Positions 12,105-19,117 of a stretch of 33,320 bases of DNA are shown here, in pieces. A program made the position numbers and the translations under genes. Position 1 is the stretch's first letter. The number at the start of each line of letters is the position of its first letter. The notes beneath the pieces were generated by a model. The model saw only the letters and a program-made list of their open reading frames with translations, did no database searches and was not told where the DNA came from. Location of the stretch: assembly GCA_001830835.1 (NCBI GenBank), contig MICJ01000030.1, positions 34,190 to 67,509 on the forward strand, read 5' to 3'. Origin of the DNA: Syntrophobacterales bacterium GWC2_56_13. Its GTDB lineage: Bacteria > Desulfobacterota > Syntrophia > Syntrophales > UBA5619.

Positions 12105-12408
12105 AGTCTGTCTCCTCTTCTGTTTTGGGATGAAATTTCACCTTGTCAGTGGCTATTCAGTCGCCTCCGGGCGAGTGAGGAGTTGCCCTGCACCCTCCAA
12201 AGATGGAAAACCGAACCCGGATGGTTATCCGTGTATACCATGACTGGTTTTTAGTGCAAGAGGATTTCTGCCTCCTTGCCCATGAGGTCGTCATGGCATT
12301 CTTAAGCGGATAACCCGGCCAGGAACGAATAGAATGAGTCCCAAAAGTACGAAAAACCCGTCCATCTAAAAGTTGGTGCTGGCACTTACGGATAGAAAAA
12401 TAATAATA

Positions 12409-12822: not shown

Positions 12823-13077
12823 ATGAATACTCAAAAGATAGCGATTACCGTTCCATCCGACCTTCTGGATATCATCGATAAAACAACCGAACAGCGCGGC
12901 ATTTCCAGGAGCAAATTCATATCCCTGTTGCTTCGAGAGAAGTTGCTGGAGGAAAGAAATCGTCAATTAAAGGATCAATATGACAAAGTCTTTTCTGACA
13001 GCGCCATTTGTGATGAGCAGTTAAAAACCGCCATGTGGCTGGATGGGGCGGGAAGCCGGGAAGGGCAGGAATGGTAA
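12823..13077 (+). CDS. Ribbon-helix-helix antitoxin of a MazF-type module
   Basis: MNTQKIAITVPSDLLDIIDKTTEQRGISRSKFISLLLREKL; overlaps the downstream MazF-like gene. Confidence 0.85.
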   Translation: MNTQKIAITVPSDLLDIIDKTTEQRGISRSKFISLLLREKLLEERNRQLKDQYDKVFSDSAICDEQLKTAMWLDGAGSREGQEW

Positions 13078-13427
13078 TCCGAAGCGGTTCGATTTACTGG
13101 GTTGATTTTTCGCCCGGAAAAGAGTCTGAACCGATGGGCAGACGGCCCGGCCTTGTCATCCAGAATGATGCCTTAAACGACAGCAATATTAACACCGTTA
13201 TCATGCTCGCCATCACATCGACGCTAAAATTTGGTGAGTTGCCGGGAAACATTGTATTGCAAAAAGGGGAAGCAAATATGCCCAGACGTTGTGTAATCAA
13301 TGTCTCTCAGATAAAATCCGTTGATAAAAAAAGCATAAAGGAAAATATCGGCGCCCTGTCAGAAAAAAGGATGGCTGAGGTTTATCAAGGGTTAAGGCTT
13401 GTCATGAACATTCCTCTCATTGCTTAG
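13071..13427 (+). CDS. MazF/PemK-family toxin (mRNA interferase)
   Basis: MVIRSGSIYWVDFSPGKESEPMGRRPGLVIQND...NTVIMLAITSTL...GEANMPRRCVINVSQIKSVDK; start at ATG 13071. Confidence 0.92.
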   Translation: MVIRSGSIYWVDFSPGKESEPMGRRPGLVIQNDALNDSNINTVIMLAITSTLKFGELPGNIVLQKGEANMPRRCVINVSQIKSVDKKSIKENIGALSEKRMAEVYQGLRLVMNIPLIA

Positions 13428-13439
13428 GGGTTACGGAAT

Positions 13440-14848
13440 ATGAACCTGATTGAGAAGATACAGTCAAGAGAAGCCAAGGTCGGCGTGATCGGCATGGGGT
13501 ATGTCGGCCTCCCTCTCGCAATCGAATTCTGCCGGGCCGGGTTTTCCGTCACGGGCTTTGATATCGATGAATATAAAATATCTCTTCTCCGGGAGGGGAA
13601 AAGCTACATCAGGCATATCAATTCCTCGATTCTTGCAGGAATCCAGGGACATGACCCAATCTCACCAGAAATTAGGATTGTGACCCCCAATTCCCTCCCA
13701 ATTTCCCGGAATTCCATTTCCCCTCCCCTGGCGGGAGGGGACGAAGGGAAGGGGGCAAGTAGTCGCCGCGGTTTCCACCCCACAACCGATTTCTCGCTCC
13801 TGCAGAACATGGACTGCATCATCATCTGCGTTCCCACACCCCTGAACAAAAACAGAGAACCTGACGTGCATTATGTGTTCACCACGGCGCAAACCATCGG
13901 GAAATATCTGCGCAAGGGCCAGCTTGTCGTCCTGGAATCCACCACCTATCCCGGAACGACAGATCAGGACGTCCGGGCGATTCTTGAAGAAAGCGGACTC
14001 ATCGCCGGGCGGGACTTCCACTTGGCCTTTTCGCCGGAACGGGAAGACCCGAACAATAAGGATTTAAACGTGCGCACGATCCCCAAGGTGGTCGGCGGCT
14101 ACACCCCGGCATGCCTTGCCGCTGCGATGGCCATGTATGGCGCCATCGTGGACAGAACCGTTCCCGTCTCGTCGCCCCGCGTCGCCGAAGCGGCCAAACT
14201 GCTGGAAAACATCTATCGCTCCGTCAACATCGCCCTGGTCAACGAACTGAAGATGCTCTTCGACAGGATGGACATCGACGTCTGGGAGGTCATCGAAGCC
14301 GCCAAGACCAAACCCTTCGGCTTCCAGGCCTTCTATCCCGGCCCGGGGCTGGGAGGCCACTGCATCCCCATCGATCCCTTTTACCTGACCTGGAAGGCGC
14401 GGGAGTTTGAATTCAATACGCGCTTCATCGAGCTGGCGGGCGAAATCAACACCGCCATGCCCGATTACGTCGTCGAGAAAGTGATGAAGACGTTAAACGA
14501 TCATTGCAAGACCGTAAAGGGATCAAAGATCCTCCTCCTTGGATTAGCGTACAAGGCAAATGTGGATGACGACCGGGAATCGCCGTCATACCGCCTCATG
14601 GACAAACTGGAGGATTTGGGGGCGGAAGTTTTCTACAATGCCCCGTATATCCCGGTGATAGTCCGACGCGGAAATATGCGAAATTTGCGCAGAGGCAGTC
14701 GGTTGCGATCAGCGGCGCCTTTGACCTCATACTGATTGCAACGGCACATGACGAATACAAAAAAATCGATTTCAAATCATTCGGCATTCCGGTCGTAGAC
14801 ACGCGAAACGTCATCCCGAAAACAGGTGATTTTCCCTATCGAGCGTAG
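13440..14848 (+). pseudogene. UDP-N-acetylglucosamine 6-dehydrogenase-like nucleotide sugar dehydrogenase (WbpA-type) with in-frame insertion and C-terminal frameshift
   Basis: VGVIGMGYVGLPLAIEF, CVPTPLNKNREPDV, ESTTYPGTTDQ, FYPGPGLGGHCIPIDPFYL; after ~14658 homology continues one frame over: SPTRKYAKFAQRQSVAISGAFDLILIATAHDEYKKIDFKSFGIPVVDTRNVIPKTGDFPYRA* (ends 14848). Confidence 0.85.
13647..13769 (+). repeat. Palindromic repeat-derived in-frame insertion within the nucleotide sugar dehydrogenase
   Basis: Encodes roughly GHDPISPEIRIVTPNSLPISRNSISPPLAGGDEGKGASSRRG between IAxx and TTDFSLL; contains hairpin CCCCTCCC-CTGGC-GGGAGGGG at 13720-13740. Confidence 0.6.
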
Positions 14849-14957
14849 AGAACGCAGACGGCCTTCGCGTTCCTGAGTTATAAGCCCGGCGGGTTCCCCG
14901 TCAGCGAAGACGCCACAAAGCGCTAAATTTAAAGACATAACCCCCATGAATACTGGA

Positions 14958-14982
14958 GGAAAAGCCGGTACAACTCCCTTTT
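14958..14982 (+). repeat. Diverged copy of the hairpin arm found at 15599
   Basis: GGAAAAGCCGGTACAACTCCCTTTT vs GGAAAAGCCGGGGCGACTCCCTTTT. Confidence 0.6.
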
Positions 14983-15055
14983 CATCGACGCCTTGACATA
15001 GCCAGCCAAACTAAGGTAGAAGTAGTTTAATCCCTGAAAAACGGCCTTTATTTCC

Positions 15056-15331
15056 ATGAAACAAAATGGTGAAAACATGCTAAGCAAAGATATCAGAGTG
15101 GAAGCGTTTTGGGATGAGGAAGCTCAGGTTTGGGTTGCCTCCAGCGACGATGTCCCGGGGTTGATCACGGAAGCGGACACGATGGAGCATCTCATGAAAA
15201 AGCTGAAAATCTTAATTCCCGAATTGCTCCAGGCTAATGGCCTGCTCGATGAGCCGGGTGCGGTCGATATTCCCATTCATCTCCTCGGACAATGGCAGGA
15301 AGTCATCAAGACCAAATCCCGAAATGGCTGA
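15056..15331 (+). CDS. HicB-like/DUF1902 antitoxin
   Basis: IRVEAFWDEEAQVWVASSDDVPGLITEADTMEHLMKKLKILIPELL; overlaps HicA-like gene. Confidence 0.82.
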   Translation: MKQNGENMLSKDIRVEAFWDEEAQVWVASSDDVPGLITEADTMEHLMKKLKILIPELLQANGLLDEPGAVDIPIHLLGQWQEVIKTKSRNG

Positions 15332-15519
15332 CTACGCCCCGATCGTCAAAAAAATCCTTTCTGAATAATGATTGCCATTTTGAACGTCAGAGCAAAGGAG
15401 ATCACGAAATCTGGTACAGCCCCCTCACGAAGCTCCGCTTTCCCGTAGATGGTAAAATCAGGTCGCGCCACACCGCCAACGGCATTCTCAAACAAGCCGG
15501 TCTGCCGAAACAGTTTTAA
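15324..15519 (+). pseudogene. HicA-like (YcfA) toxin, frameshifted
   Basis: MADYAPIVKKILSE* then one frame over NDCHFERQSKGDHEIWYSPLTKLRFPVDGKIRSRHTANGILKQAGLPKQF*. Confidence 0.75.
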
Positions 15520-15598
15520 TGACTGAGCAGAAATACAACCCCCGTCGAAGAGGCCGAGGCAGCGGGGCGCCTGGCGACCGAGCTGAACTCCACCCGAA

Positions 15599-15660
15599 GG
15601 AAAAGCCGGGGCGACTCCCTTTTATCCCGAAGGGAAAAAGGGAGTCGCCCCGGCTTTTCC
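15599..15660. repeat. Long near-perfect hairpin: 25-bp perfect arms plus 4 bp, one bulged A, GAA loop
   Basis: GGAAAAGCCGGGGCGACTCCCTTTT-A-TCCC-GAA-GGGA-AAAAGGGAGTCGCCCCGGCTTTTCC. Confidence 0.85.
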
Positions 15661-15679
15661 GGGCCCCAGGCTGGGATTT

Positions 15680-15704
15680 AATAATCGGGAGCTGTCCCCC
15701 CTTT
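15680..15704 (+). repeat. Module-spacing repeat copy A: AATAATCGGGAGCTGTCCCCCCTTT
   Basis: Identical core with copies at 16471 and 17185. Confidence 0.85.
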
Positions 15705-15758
15705 TTCCACTTTTAATATTGCATAATGCTTCACTAAGTGGTATAGAGTAAATTAAAG

Positions 15759-16130
15759 ATGATTTTTAAAACTCGCAATTTTGCACGATGGGCACGAAAG
15801 TCCCGGTTGTCTGATTCGCTGCTGAAAATGGCTGTTCTCGAAATTCAGCGGGGGTTGCTGGAGGCTGATCTTGGCGGCGGGATTGTGGAAAAGCGTATTG
15901 CTTTGCCGGGGAGAGGCAAGCGTGGCAGTACGAGAACATTGTTGGCGACGAACAGGAATGACAGGTGGTTTTTTGTATTTGGTTTTGAAAAGAACGAGCG
16001 TGTAGATATTTCAGAAAACGAACTGGAATCTTTGAAGAAGCTGGCAAAAGACCTTCTGGATTTGACAGCGGCGCAGATTGCAGTTTCCTTAGGGGAAGGT
16101 TCTTTGGTGGAGGTCGAACATGAAGCGTGA
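15759..16130 (+). CDS. RelE/HigB-superfamily toxin
   Basis: MIFKTRNFARWARKSRLSDSLLKMAVLEIQRGLLEADLGGGIVEKRIALPGRGKRGSTRTLLATNRNDRWFFVFGFEKNER. Confidence 0.87.
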   Translation: MIFKTRNFARWARKSRLSDSLLKMAVLEIQRGLLEADLGGGIVEKRIALPGRGKRGSTRTLLATNRNDRWFFVFGFEKNERVDISENELESLKKLAKDLLDLTAAQIAVSLGEGSLVEVEHEA

Positions 16131-16446
16131 ACAAAATAAGAGCCGTCTTTTAGAAGCGGTTCATGAAACTGCGCAGGATCTGCATAAACTCGGATTTATA
16201 GGTAAACGCACGATGCGCGAGTATGATGTTTTGTGTGTTAAACCGGTTTCTGTTTATTCGGCAGAACAGATTCGTTCCCTGCGGGAACGTTATCGACTTA
16301 GCCAGGCCGTTATGGCGTCCGTGCTCAATACCAGCCTCTCTACCATTCAGAAGTGGGAGATCGGAGATAAGCATCCGAGCGGACCTTCTCTCAAACTCTT
16401 GACCATTCTTGACCGTAAAGGACTGGAAGCGATGATATGTGATTAG
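16120..16446 (+). CDS. HigA/XRE-family HTH antitoxin
   Basis: EQIRSLRERYRLSQAVMASVLNTSLSTIQKWEIGDKHPSGPSLKLLTIL; overlaps the toxin gene. Confidence 0.9.
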   Translation: MKREQNKSRLLEAVHETAQDLHKLGFIGKRTMREYDVLCVKPVSVYSAEQIRSLRERYRLSQAVMASVLNTSLSTIQKWEIGDKHPSGPSLKLLTILDRKGLEAMICD

Positions 16447-16470
16447 GAATTCCCCCACGGGACGGGAGCA

Positions 16471-16495
16471 AATAATCGGGAGCTGTCCCCCCTTT
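16471..16495 (+). repeat. Module-spacing repeat copy B
   Basis: GGGACGGGAGCAAATAATCGGGAGCTGTCCCCCCTTT. Confidence 0.85.
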
Positions 16496-16616
16496 CTAAG
16501 GTACTCATTGCTTAGTTCTGGAACGGGTGAGAAAATGGGAAAACGAGCGCTGTCTTTTTTTCGTAGAGAACATCATAATATGATAAAATGAGAATGGATA
16601 TGAGGAGGTGAAATAA

Positions 16617-16832
16617 ATGAGCACAGCAACGGTAAACAAGCTAATCGAGGAATTCAGCCACTTGCCCCTTGATGATAAGGAATATGCGACAGAAGTGATC
16701 AAGAAGCAGCTGATAGAGGCAAAAAGAGAGACCCTTGCCAAGAGGGCAAAAACAGCAATGGCCAGTTTCAGGAAAAAGATGACCAAGTGCGGAACTGTAA
16801 AAGAATTATACAAGGATCTGGAAAGTGATTAA
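16617..16832 (+). CDS. Small antitoxin-like protein of a RelBE-type module
   Basis: 71 aa charged helical protein overlapping the 5' end of a RelE-like frame. Confidence 0.6.
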   Translation: MSTATVNKLIEEFSHLPLDDKEYATEVIKKQLIEAKRETLAKRAKTAMASFRKKMTKCGTVKELYKDLESD

Positions 16833-17095
16833 AGTATCCTGGGACCAAGGCTTCAAGAGGGTTTACCGAAAGAAGGTAAAGTAACGATGCCGAACTCAAG
16901 GGCAGATTTTGGGACGCTGTGGAAATGTTTGTAAAAGATCCTTTTCACCCACGCCTGAGAACTCACAAATTGACGGGCAGGCTTGAAGGGCTCTGGGCAT
17001 TCAGCGTTAGCTTTGATTGCCGGGTAATCTTTAAGTTTTTAAGCAAGACCGAAATCCTTCTGATTGATATTGGCGGACACGACGAAGTTTATTGA
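16825..17095 (+). pseudogene. RelE/YafQ-like toxin, frameshifted
   Basis: GTG-start VIKVSWDQGFKRVYRKKVK* then one frame over NDAELKGRFWDAVEMFVKDPFHPRLRTHKLTGRLEGLWAFSVSFDCRVIFKFLSKTEILLIDIGGHDEVY*. Confidence 0.75.
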
Positions 17096-17184
17096 TCCCG
17101 CGCTTAGTTACTCCTCACTCATTGCCCATTGCCTATCACTCATTGCTCTTTGCTCATTAAAAACCGGGCAACAGGACGGGAGTT

Positions 17185-17209
17185 AATAATCGGGAGCTGT
17201 CCCCCCTTT
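17185..17209 (+). repeat. Module-spacing repeat copy C
   Basis: AGGACGGGAGTTAATAATCGGGAGCTGTCCCCCCTTTT. Confidence 0.85.
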
Positions 17210-17259
17210 TCCGGGCCACAGGAGGCGCAGGAAAATTTGACTTTGTGCAGATCTTTGTT

Positions 17260-17295
17260 TATGATGCACAAAAAATAAGATTTTTGTGCATCATA
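17260..17295. promoter_or_regulatory. Perfect 15-bp inverted repeat 8 nt upstream of the AAA ATPase start
   Basis: TATGATGCACAAAAA-ATAAGA-TTTTTGTGCATCATA. Confidence 0.65.
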
Positions 17296-17303
17296 GGTAA
17301 AAT

Positions 17304-18560
17304 ATGCTAAGAGATATCGCCCTTCTTCAAAAAAGAGAACTGGAAAGCCGTTTTCAGGAAACCTATGTCGAACGGAAGATATCGATACCCTGGGACCTCG
17401 GAAACGATCTGATCAAGGTCATCACCGGTCCGCGGCGTGCGGGGAAATCGTTTTATGGCTTTCATCTGATCCAACAAGCCGGATCTTACGGCTACATCAA
17501 CTTCGATGACGAACGGCTGACCGCCGTGGAAGATTACGATGAAATTGTCAGCGCCGTAAGCGCCGTCTACGGCAATCCTCGCTATCTGTTTTTTGACGAG
17601 ATCCAGAATCTTCCGCGCTGGGAAATGTTCGTCAATCGTCTGCAGCGCCAGGGGTTCAGGCTTCTGATCACCGGCAGCAACGCCAATCTGCTCTCTTCGG
17701 AACTGGCTACCCATCTTACGGGCCGTCATGCCTCTCTTGTTCTGTTTCCCTTTTCTTTCGGCGAGGTCTTGGCCGCATCAGAGGGACAGCGGACCGAGAT
17801 CGAGAAAATGGCCGTGCTGGACGCGTACGCGGAACAAGGCGGCTATCCGGAACCCCTTCTCAAAAAGATCGACCGCCGCGACTATCTTCGCAACCTGCTG
17901 CAATCTACATTGTACAAGGACATCGTCAAACGGTTCAAGATCAGGTCGGTCCAGGGGATCGAAGATCTGACCCTTTACCTGATGTCGAACATCGCGCGCG
18001 AGTATTCGTTCAACGCACTTTCCGGGGTAACGAAGTGCCGCAGCGTTCATACGATCGATAGATATATCCGCTATCTTCAGGAAGCCTATCTGGTTTTCTC
18101 GCTCCCGCGCTTCTCTTTCAAGGTGAAGGATCAGGCGGGACACAACAAGAAAATCTACTGCACTGACAATGGACTGGCGGTATCGGCAGGTTTCCGCTTC
18201 AGTGCGGACAGGGGGGCGCTTTATGAGAATCTCGTGGCCGTCGCTCTGAAAAAAGAGGAAATCGCCGGTCGAATTTCCCTATTCTATTGGAAGAGCCCGC
18301 AAAACGAGGAAGTGGATTTTATCATCAAAGAGGGGCTGCATGTGACGCGGCTGATTCAGGTCTGTTCGGACATCACGAATCCGAAGACGCTGAAGAGGGA
18401 AATGCGGGCGCTGCTCAAGGCTTCTCAGGAGCTGCATTGCGATGAGCTTTTGCTGCTCAACGACCGCGTTGACCGGACGGAGACGTTCCGATGGCAGGAT
18501 GCCGAGCGCCCGATCCAGTTGATGCCGTTATGGCAATGGCTGGAAACATCACCATCCTGA
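17304..18560 (+). CDS. AAA_14/DUF4143 family ATP-binding protein
   Basis: ITGPRRAGKSFYGF (Walker A), YLFFDEIQNLPRW (Walker B), LLITGSNANLLSSELATHLTGRHASLVLFPFSFGE, YLQEAYLVFSLPRFSFK, FYWKSPQNEEVDFIIKE. Confidence 0.93.
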   Translation: MLRDIALLQKRELESRFQETYVERKISIPWDLGNDLIKVITGPRRAGKSFYGFHLIQQAGSYGYINFDDERLTAVEDYDEIVSAVSAVYGNPRYLFFDEIQNLPRWEMFVNRLQRQGFRLLITGSNANLLSSELATHLTGRHASLVLFPFSFGEVLAASEGQRTEIEKMAVLDAYAEQGGYPEPLLKKIDRRDYLRNLLQSTLYKDIVKRFKIRSVQGIEDLTLYLMSNIAREYSFNALSGVTKCRSVHTIDRYIRYLQEAYLVFSLPRFSFKVKDQAGHNKKIYCTDNGLAVSAGFRFSADRGALYENLVAVALKKEEIAGRISLFYWKSPQNEEVDFIIKEGLHVTRLIQVCSDITNPKTLKREMRALLKASQELHCDELLLLNDRVDRTETFRWQDAERPIQLMPLWQWLETSPS

Positions 18561-18650
18561 CCCCATGTCCCTCCCCTGCAAAACGCTAAATTTGACGCTC
18601 CCGTTCTGATACCGGACGTTGCTACCGCTGCCATTGATCATAAAGACGTC

Positions 18651-18915
18651 GTGATCTTTATGGTCGACGAGTTTCCGATCGCATGTGTTTCTCTGTTTCC
18701 TGGCGCTCATGCTGGTGCGCATCGCGGAGAGAAAAACGGGGCTCACCTGGGACCGTATTCGTGGTGTGATGGAGCGTCTTCATCTGATAGAATTTTTTTC
18801 AAAAGATGGACGTGTTCTACAGACTACCGAACCGACATCGGAACAGCATAACATTTTTAAATTACTTAAAATATCACTACCGAAGCGAATGCAAAACATC
18901 CAAATGAACCCCTAA
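18651..18915 (+). mobile_element. C-terminal remnant of an IS1634/IS4-like transposase
   Basis: MFLCFLALMLVRIAERKTGLTWDRIRGVMERLHLIEFFSKDGRVLQTTEPTSEQHNIFKLLKISLPKRM resembles the C-terminus of these DDE transposases; no catalytic core. Confidence 0.65.
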
Positions 18916-19117
18916 AAACGTAGGCACACGACCAAAAAACGGGCACATCCTAAATGATCGCAATGACTCAGTTATCGCAAAACCGTTTGCCTACCACTGT
19001 CGAAGCCGGGCATTACACGTAAACTTCTGAGAACAATATTTGCCATGGTTCGCAATCATAAGACATATATGGAGAATTACGAGCAACGGCATCATGAAAA
19101 ATTAGCTGCTTAGTCTT

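Follow-up and report, generated by a model that had tools for sequence, protein, structure and literature searches.

Integron gene-cassette arrays that are rich in toxin–antitoxin (TA) modules consist of small, largely co-directional units separated by a repeat. REPINs are inverted doublets of REP sequences that form long hairpins and lie mostly between genes, whereas REP singlets are viewed as relics (Bertels and Rainey 2011, PMC3116915). The motif GGGGWSAS occurs in the terminal inverted repeats (TIRs) of RAYT-like genes known as “TIRtrons” or TIRYT, where the repeats can stand alone, pair up as dimers, or form clusters (Di Nocera et al. 2013, PMC3733652). In Escherichia coli, according to work cited in PMC6006769, a TA operon can take the place of the REPtron locus. 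Within the open-licence PMC literature, we found no paper on REPs, REPINs, or RAYTs that describes TA arrays bounded by such elements.

Here, we analyzed a 33,320-nt stretch of DNA (“the window”) from Syntrophobacterales bacterium GWC2_56_13, a metagenome-assembled genome (MAG) of 2.6 Mb in 119 contigs that is 91% complete. The region is a decaying TA cluster of a Syntrophales bacterium that is TA-rich, REP-littered, and partly pseudogenized, and the 25-nt repeat found in it, referred to as R1, is ordinary in kind: it belongs to a set of short, dispersed REP-like elements of the sort associated with a “domesticated” transposase. The R1 family resembles REPINs and RAYT-associated REPs in that its inverted doublets form long hairpins and its copies are dispersed mostly between genes; it differs in lacking a conserved GTAG tag, in having far fewer copies, and in having singlets without a palindromic hairpin. 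With TIRtron TIRs, R1 shares the GGGGWSAS motif, a moderate copy number, and occurrence as singles, dimers, and clusters, and its inverted copies seem to accompany RAYT-like genes as well; unlike these TIRs, it is a Syntrophales family without the GTAG tag, forms mosaics with another repeat (R3), and has no cognate transposase that we could find in its own genome. The E. coli replacement is similar in that TA modules appear to be exchanged with REP/RAYT loci, but the REPtron is a single locus, whereas the Syntrophales case concerns several REP families in many spacers.

Genes of the toxin–antitoxin array

The genes of the array and its surroundings, all on the forward strand, are as follows.

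12823–13427, + strand, RHH antitoxin and PemK/MazF-like toxin (Pfam PF01402 and PF02452, E = 5.6e-26)
15056–15519, + strand, HicB-like (DUF1902) and HicA-like genes (Pfam; homology to G005)
15759–16446, + strand, HigBA-like pair of a RelE-family toxin and an HTH antitoxin (Pfam)
16617–16832, + strand, RelB-like antitoxin ORF (named by position)
16880–17095, + strand, YafQ/RelE-like toxin remnant, its frame broken relative to its start
17304–18560, + strand, AAA_14/DUF4143 ATPase gene (Pfam, E = 2e-32)
18600–19010, + strand, gene remnants (homology to G005 and G001)

An earlier note on this DNA had counted four TA systems. Three of these are supported by Pfam as adjacent genes of known type II TA families, namely HicBA, the HigBA-like pair, and, as the fourth pair, RHH/PemK, with a sugar-nucleotide dehydrogenase gene lying between it and the array. 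The HicB-like protein matched DUF1902 with an E-value of 4e-22, and the HicA match (E = 8e-6, 26.3 bits) fell slightly below the cut-off; in the HigBA-like pair, the toxin matched RelE/HigB (PF06296, E = 9e-42) and the antitoxin an HTH family (E = 4e-7). The third, RelBE-like, pair is broken: its toxin loses the frame near position 16880, with YafQ/RelE-like sequence going on in another frame, which reflects either a pseudogene or an assembly error. The antitoxin ORF of this pair had zero matches in Pfam or NCBIfam. Downstream of the ATPase gene, positions 18600–18680 match an AlbA_2 gene of G005 with 85% identity and positions 18680–19010 match G001:C110 with 86% identity. An Rfam search of the window returned a tRNA only. 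A plasmid origin of the region was considered and rejected, there being two weak gene-level matches only.

The R1 repeat within the window

The earlier note had reported a 25-nt repeat occurring three times in one orientation, and a search of the window confirmed this for the 25-mer AATAATCGGGAGCTGTCCCCCCTTT, with zero mismatches in each copy; in 100 shuffles, no such copies were expected by chance.

15680–15704, + strand, R1 copy A (exact match)
16471–16495, + strand, R1 copy B (exact match)
17185–17209, + strand, R1 copy C (exact match)

The three copies occupy three successive gaps in the series HicBA, HigBA-like, RelBE-like, and AAA–DUF4143. Copy A lies 160 nt 3' of the hicA stop codon, with the next ORF 54 nt further on; copy B lies 24 nt past the preceding ORF and 121 nt ahead of the next; and copy C lies approximately 90 nt past the RelE-like remnant and 94 nt ahead of the AAA gene. 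Given these distances, the description of the repeat as standing between modules is right, whereas its placement “exactly after” each module is loose. All three copies are solitary half-elements without an inverted partner, and they fold no better than shuffled sequences (z = +0.26 to +1.24).

Beyond the 25-mer, copies A and C resemble each other across 47 nt with 89% identity, copy B is 72% identical to copy A, and copies B and C have the longer upstream core that the earlier note had claimed (GGACGGGAGNNAATAATCGGG). The extended copy C (17159–17210) is 96% identical to the site in the sibling genome G002 where a DUF4143 gene and a VapBC pair meet. Among 156 genomes of the order, the extended left flank was found only in window copies A to C, in G002, and, weakly, in G010, where the copy has three mismatches and a non-TA location. 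Its presence in four TA-array junctions suggests local duplication or recombination, more than three separate insertion events, as the route by which the extended form spread among TA/DUF4143 spacers.

The clustering of three of nine genome sites inside 1.5 kb and the 47-nt similarity of copies A and C would also be expected if local segmental duplication had produced the three copies, with no role for them in recombination. We consider this unlikely, as the genes between the copies are unrelated, the similarity ends near the repeat edges, and the sibling G002 has the same extended form beside different genes.

A regulatory element kept between adjacent TA operons, acting as a terminator, mRNA stabilizer, or insulator, would likewise occur once per gap, 3' of one operon and 5' of the next, and a sigma-70-like match does follow copy C. 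Yet no R1 copy carries a terminator-like site on the + strand, terminator-like counts equal those of shuffles, the singlets do not fold, and at its other sites R1 breaks into or adjoins unrelated genes in either orientation. A regulatory role is thus quite improbable, and a terminator or promoter function was rejected, with folding and terminator-like counts at shuffle level.

R1 in the rest of the genome and in relatives

Genome-wide counts were obtained by pattern searches. Using a 19-nt core, R1 was found at about nine sites in the genome, approximately six of them outside the window; this is far from the more than 100 copies per genome of REPINs. Outside the window, contigs C20, C37, C39, and C81 carry true copies, and C31 has both an inverted pair and a single copy; an apparent copy on C68 was discarded as a chance match within the atpD coding sequence. 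Perfect inverted doublets, the REPIN arrangement of two inverted REPs in a long hairpin, occur at C31:5612/5648 and C20:2404, and the C31 pair folds very strongly (DNA z = -10.7). The C31 doublet (L042, 5602–5670) lies in frame within a HAD-like ORF.

Elsewhere among GTDB genomes, the exact core was found on 35 contigs, nearly all from MAGs named Syntrophales, Syntrophaceae, or Syntrophobacterales, with a few named only Deltaproteobacteria. Many of these copies are inverted doublets with a short spacer, and most adjoin housekeeping genes, for example gyrB/gyrA. According to the earlier note, scattering of the repeat with no association to TA genes or accessory cassettes, together with module boundaries in relatives that fall elsewhere, would speak against its reading of the array. 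Half of this applies. R1 is indeed scattered, and in both the genome itself and the GTDB scan most copies are not beside TA genes, so that R1 was rejected as a TA-specific repeat; yet five of the nine sites in the genome, three being the window copies, adjoin TA or DUF4143 genes.

Further repeat families and mosaics

Two further repeat families in the spacers, R2 and R3, had been overlooked by the earlier note.

14921–14944, + strand, R2 repeat CGCTAAATTTAAAGACATAACCCC, with two mismatches to the consensus (contig position G000:C30:49110–49133)
14958–14978, + strand, R3 half-copy upstream of hicB (sequence comparison)
15599–15660, no strand assigned, R3 inverted doublet with perfect 25-nt arms
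18579–18593, + strand, R2 half-repeat CAAAACGCTAAATTT, just ahead of the gene remnants at 18600–19010

The R3 doublet forms a strong hairpin (DNA z = -9.5). The identical 21 nt of the R3 half-copy were also found upstream of a TacAT-like pair on contig C39 of the same genome. This TacA/GNAT TA pair (L043, 4619–5630) has the R3 half-copy on one side and an inverted R1 on the other. The mosaic of R3 doublet and R1 is also present in G012, where an AAA gene lies on each side; L100 has it in a looser form, with a VapBC-like pair and a HigBA pair as neighbors. At least copy A of R1, and probably copy C, arrived within a mosaic with R3. In the G012 contig C111 (L271, 1–2400), the 5' end of a wecB-like gene is present twice, once on each side of an AAA/DUF4143 insert, and an R3 doublet lies within the reading frame of one copy.

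Link to RAYT-like transposases

The reverse strand of R1 contains GGGGACAG, which fits GGGGWSAS, and R2 contains GGGGTCAG; a GTAG/CGTC tag is absent from both strands of the R1 consensus. Y1 transposase genes of relatives were examined together with their flanks. Locus L245, from the same genome as L081, has an ORF of 233 aa that matches Y1_Tnp and, with a score below the NCBI cut-off, REP-associated tyrosine transposase. One R1 copy lies within a few nucleotides 3' of the stop codon of this RAYT-like gene and two inverted copies lie approximately 400 nt upstream; a DUF4143 fragment and copies of R2 separate the latter two from the gene. Inverted copies of R4 cleanly flank the RAYTs of G002 and G004, and inverted copies of R2 cleanly flank that of G005, which scores above the NCBI cut-off.

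In the genome itself, none of six Y1 matches has R1 to R4 nearby, and these genes were rejected as the RAYT of R1; the flanks examined (L017–L019) resemble IS200-type elements. Because no R1-linked RAYT was found there, we infer the mobilization of R1 by such an enzyme from the relatives. The REP-like nature that the earlier note had assigned to the repeat is borne out by the copies across the genome, the inverted doublets, and the RAYT link in relatives.

Module edges and repeats in relatives

Pieces of such clusters in relatives often appear to begin or end at REP-like elements. The HicBA block (14990–15520) is 88% identical to G005:C22, where R2 lies just beyond both ends, and in the window its left end is about 8–12 nt from R3. 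The RelB-like block (16583–16831) is 86% identical to a region of G156 that lacks the toxin and in which the homology ends at a REP of another type. In that region (G156:C515; L262, 950–2390), a Y1 transposase and its neighbors are parted by a further palindromic repeat (GGTGCGTTACG...TAACGCACCCTAC), which severs the RelB-like gene from its toxin. The 3' end of the DUF4143 gene (18426–18545) recurs beside R1 in L111 and L245, which have in common a 310-nt block of R1, DUF4143 fragment, and R2 with 93.5% identity, and a 3' fragment of pemK (13337–13415) comes after R4 in the sibling G002. In six congeners compared for synteny, the array is absent or fragmentary, so that no clean gain or loss of modules can be read from them.

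These edges bear on the proposal of the earlier note that a cassette-like array, resembling an integron or addiction island, was built by repeated insertion or homologous exchange at the repeat. The window array does resemble integron cassette arrays in having small, largely co-directional modules with a separating repeat. Were R1 the recombination site of a dedicated cassette system, either integron-like or based on REP-bounded transposition, with one repeat per module, one would expect the uniform orientation and the single copy per gap seen here, the movement of HicBA as a block with repeats next to both ends, the four genes or modules of G005 that are each followed by R2 in the same orientation, and the block common to L111 and L245. 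However, R1 is 25 nt long and not attC-like, most copies lie outside arrays and without a TA gene or cassette, and the “boundary” family differs between genomes (R1, R2, R3, or R4). No integrase was recognized in the ORF list and, as the earlier note had observed, the spacers contain no attC-like element, their common element being 25–50 nt long and unfolded. Moreover, among the relatives compared, neither an empty site nor an excised cassette was seen, and no locus was found with the same module between R1 copies on both sides. Given the scattered R1 copies, the weak TA enrichment (see below), and the lack of any integron-type feature, a cassette array made by insertion at the repeat is not established; nothing here requires integron- or transposon-like carriage of whole modules, and we regard a dedicated cassette system as very unlikely.

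Strength of the association with TA modules

For 21 genomes of the family, the occurrence of R1 to R7 near PIN and DUF4143 loci was compared with that near aminotransferase control loci. The loci with a REP family nearby numbered 10 of 65 for PIN and 13 of 69 for DUF4143, against 4 of 50 among the controls (Fisher p = 0.18 and 0.08 for PIN and DUF4143, respectively), the control count being slightly inflated by one locus (L225) that overlaps a DUF4143/PIN locus. With so weak an excess over controls, a strong TA association was rejected. Homology edges fell near REPs in 14 of 350 intergenic cases versus 6.5 expected at random intergenic positions, an excess of about 2-fold, to be read with the caveat that when a REP enters only one spacer of an orthologous pair, the insertion alone creates a homology edge. 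The view that the repeats mark module boundaries has partial support, from HicBA in G005, RelB in G156, the DUF4143 3' end, and the PemK fragment, and the general excess is small. The weak 21-genome test, the 2-fold excess of edges, and the fact that three of the five TA-adjacent sites are those of the window indicate that the association is real but modest. Much of it may reflect tolerance of repeats in accessory regions with many small spacers.

Proposed history of the array

We consider it highly probable that R1 is a REP-like family of the TIR type (GGGGWSAS) dispersed by RAYTs, the extended form of which spread by local duplication or recombination, with a putative role of the repeats in module swapping. 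This reading builds on the identity and distribution of R1, its inverted doublets, its linkage to RAYT-like genes in relatives, and the several homology edges at REPs. Against it stand the lack of an R1-linked RAYT in the genome itself, the unfolded singlets, the missing GTAG/CGTC tag, the separation of the upstream R1 copies from the RAYT-like gene of L245 by R2 copies and a gene fragment, and the five of nine sites beside TA or DUF4143 genes, which is above what blind scatter would suggest.

By analogy with the known families and with the relatives, RAYT-type (IS200-type, HUH) elements most likely seeded R1, R2, and R3 into intergenic DNA. Local duplication or recombination would then have copied mosaics of these repeats to several TA/DUF4143 spacers, a step supported by the extended flank that the copies have in common. 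We further infer that short identities, together with strong hairpins such as that of R3, could make the spacers breakpoints at which modules are exchanged, truncated, or lost; identical spacer repeats may act as short sites for recombination or replication slippage in such swapping, trimming, and loss, and TA addiction would slow the loss of intact modules.

The analysis adds a group of untagged REP/TIR families, together with their probable transposases, for an order of largely uncultured bacteria that has received little study. Concrete loci at which repeats coincide with the ends of TA modules that were exchanged or have eroded make the shaping of accessory clusters by REPs testable. Should no more than the ordinary reading be true, the locus is a useful caution that three occurrences of a repeat within a window may stem from a genome-wide REP. 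A bolder idea, to which we give very little credence, is that RAYT-like transposases mobilize or exchange Syntrophales TA and DUF4143 modules as units via the flanking REP/TIR elements; “domesticated” RAYTs would then move cargo and build TA arrays.

Other repeats and gene neighborhoods

The UDP-glucose/GDP-mannose dehydrogenase ORF (13440–14735), the 3' part of which continues in another frame, contains at 13714–13760 an in-frame repeat of approximately 40 nt (around CCCCTCCCCTGGCGGGAGGGGACGAAGG) that recurs at dozens of places in congeners. Approximately 100 nt at 12281–12382 recur with 92–93% identity on three other contigs of the genome, twice at contig ends, and are also present in G001. 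The REP/RAYT/TA clusters of L040, L245, L251, L271, and the window adjoin surface-polysaccharide genes, including wecB, nucleotide-sugar enzymes, and O-antigen genes.
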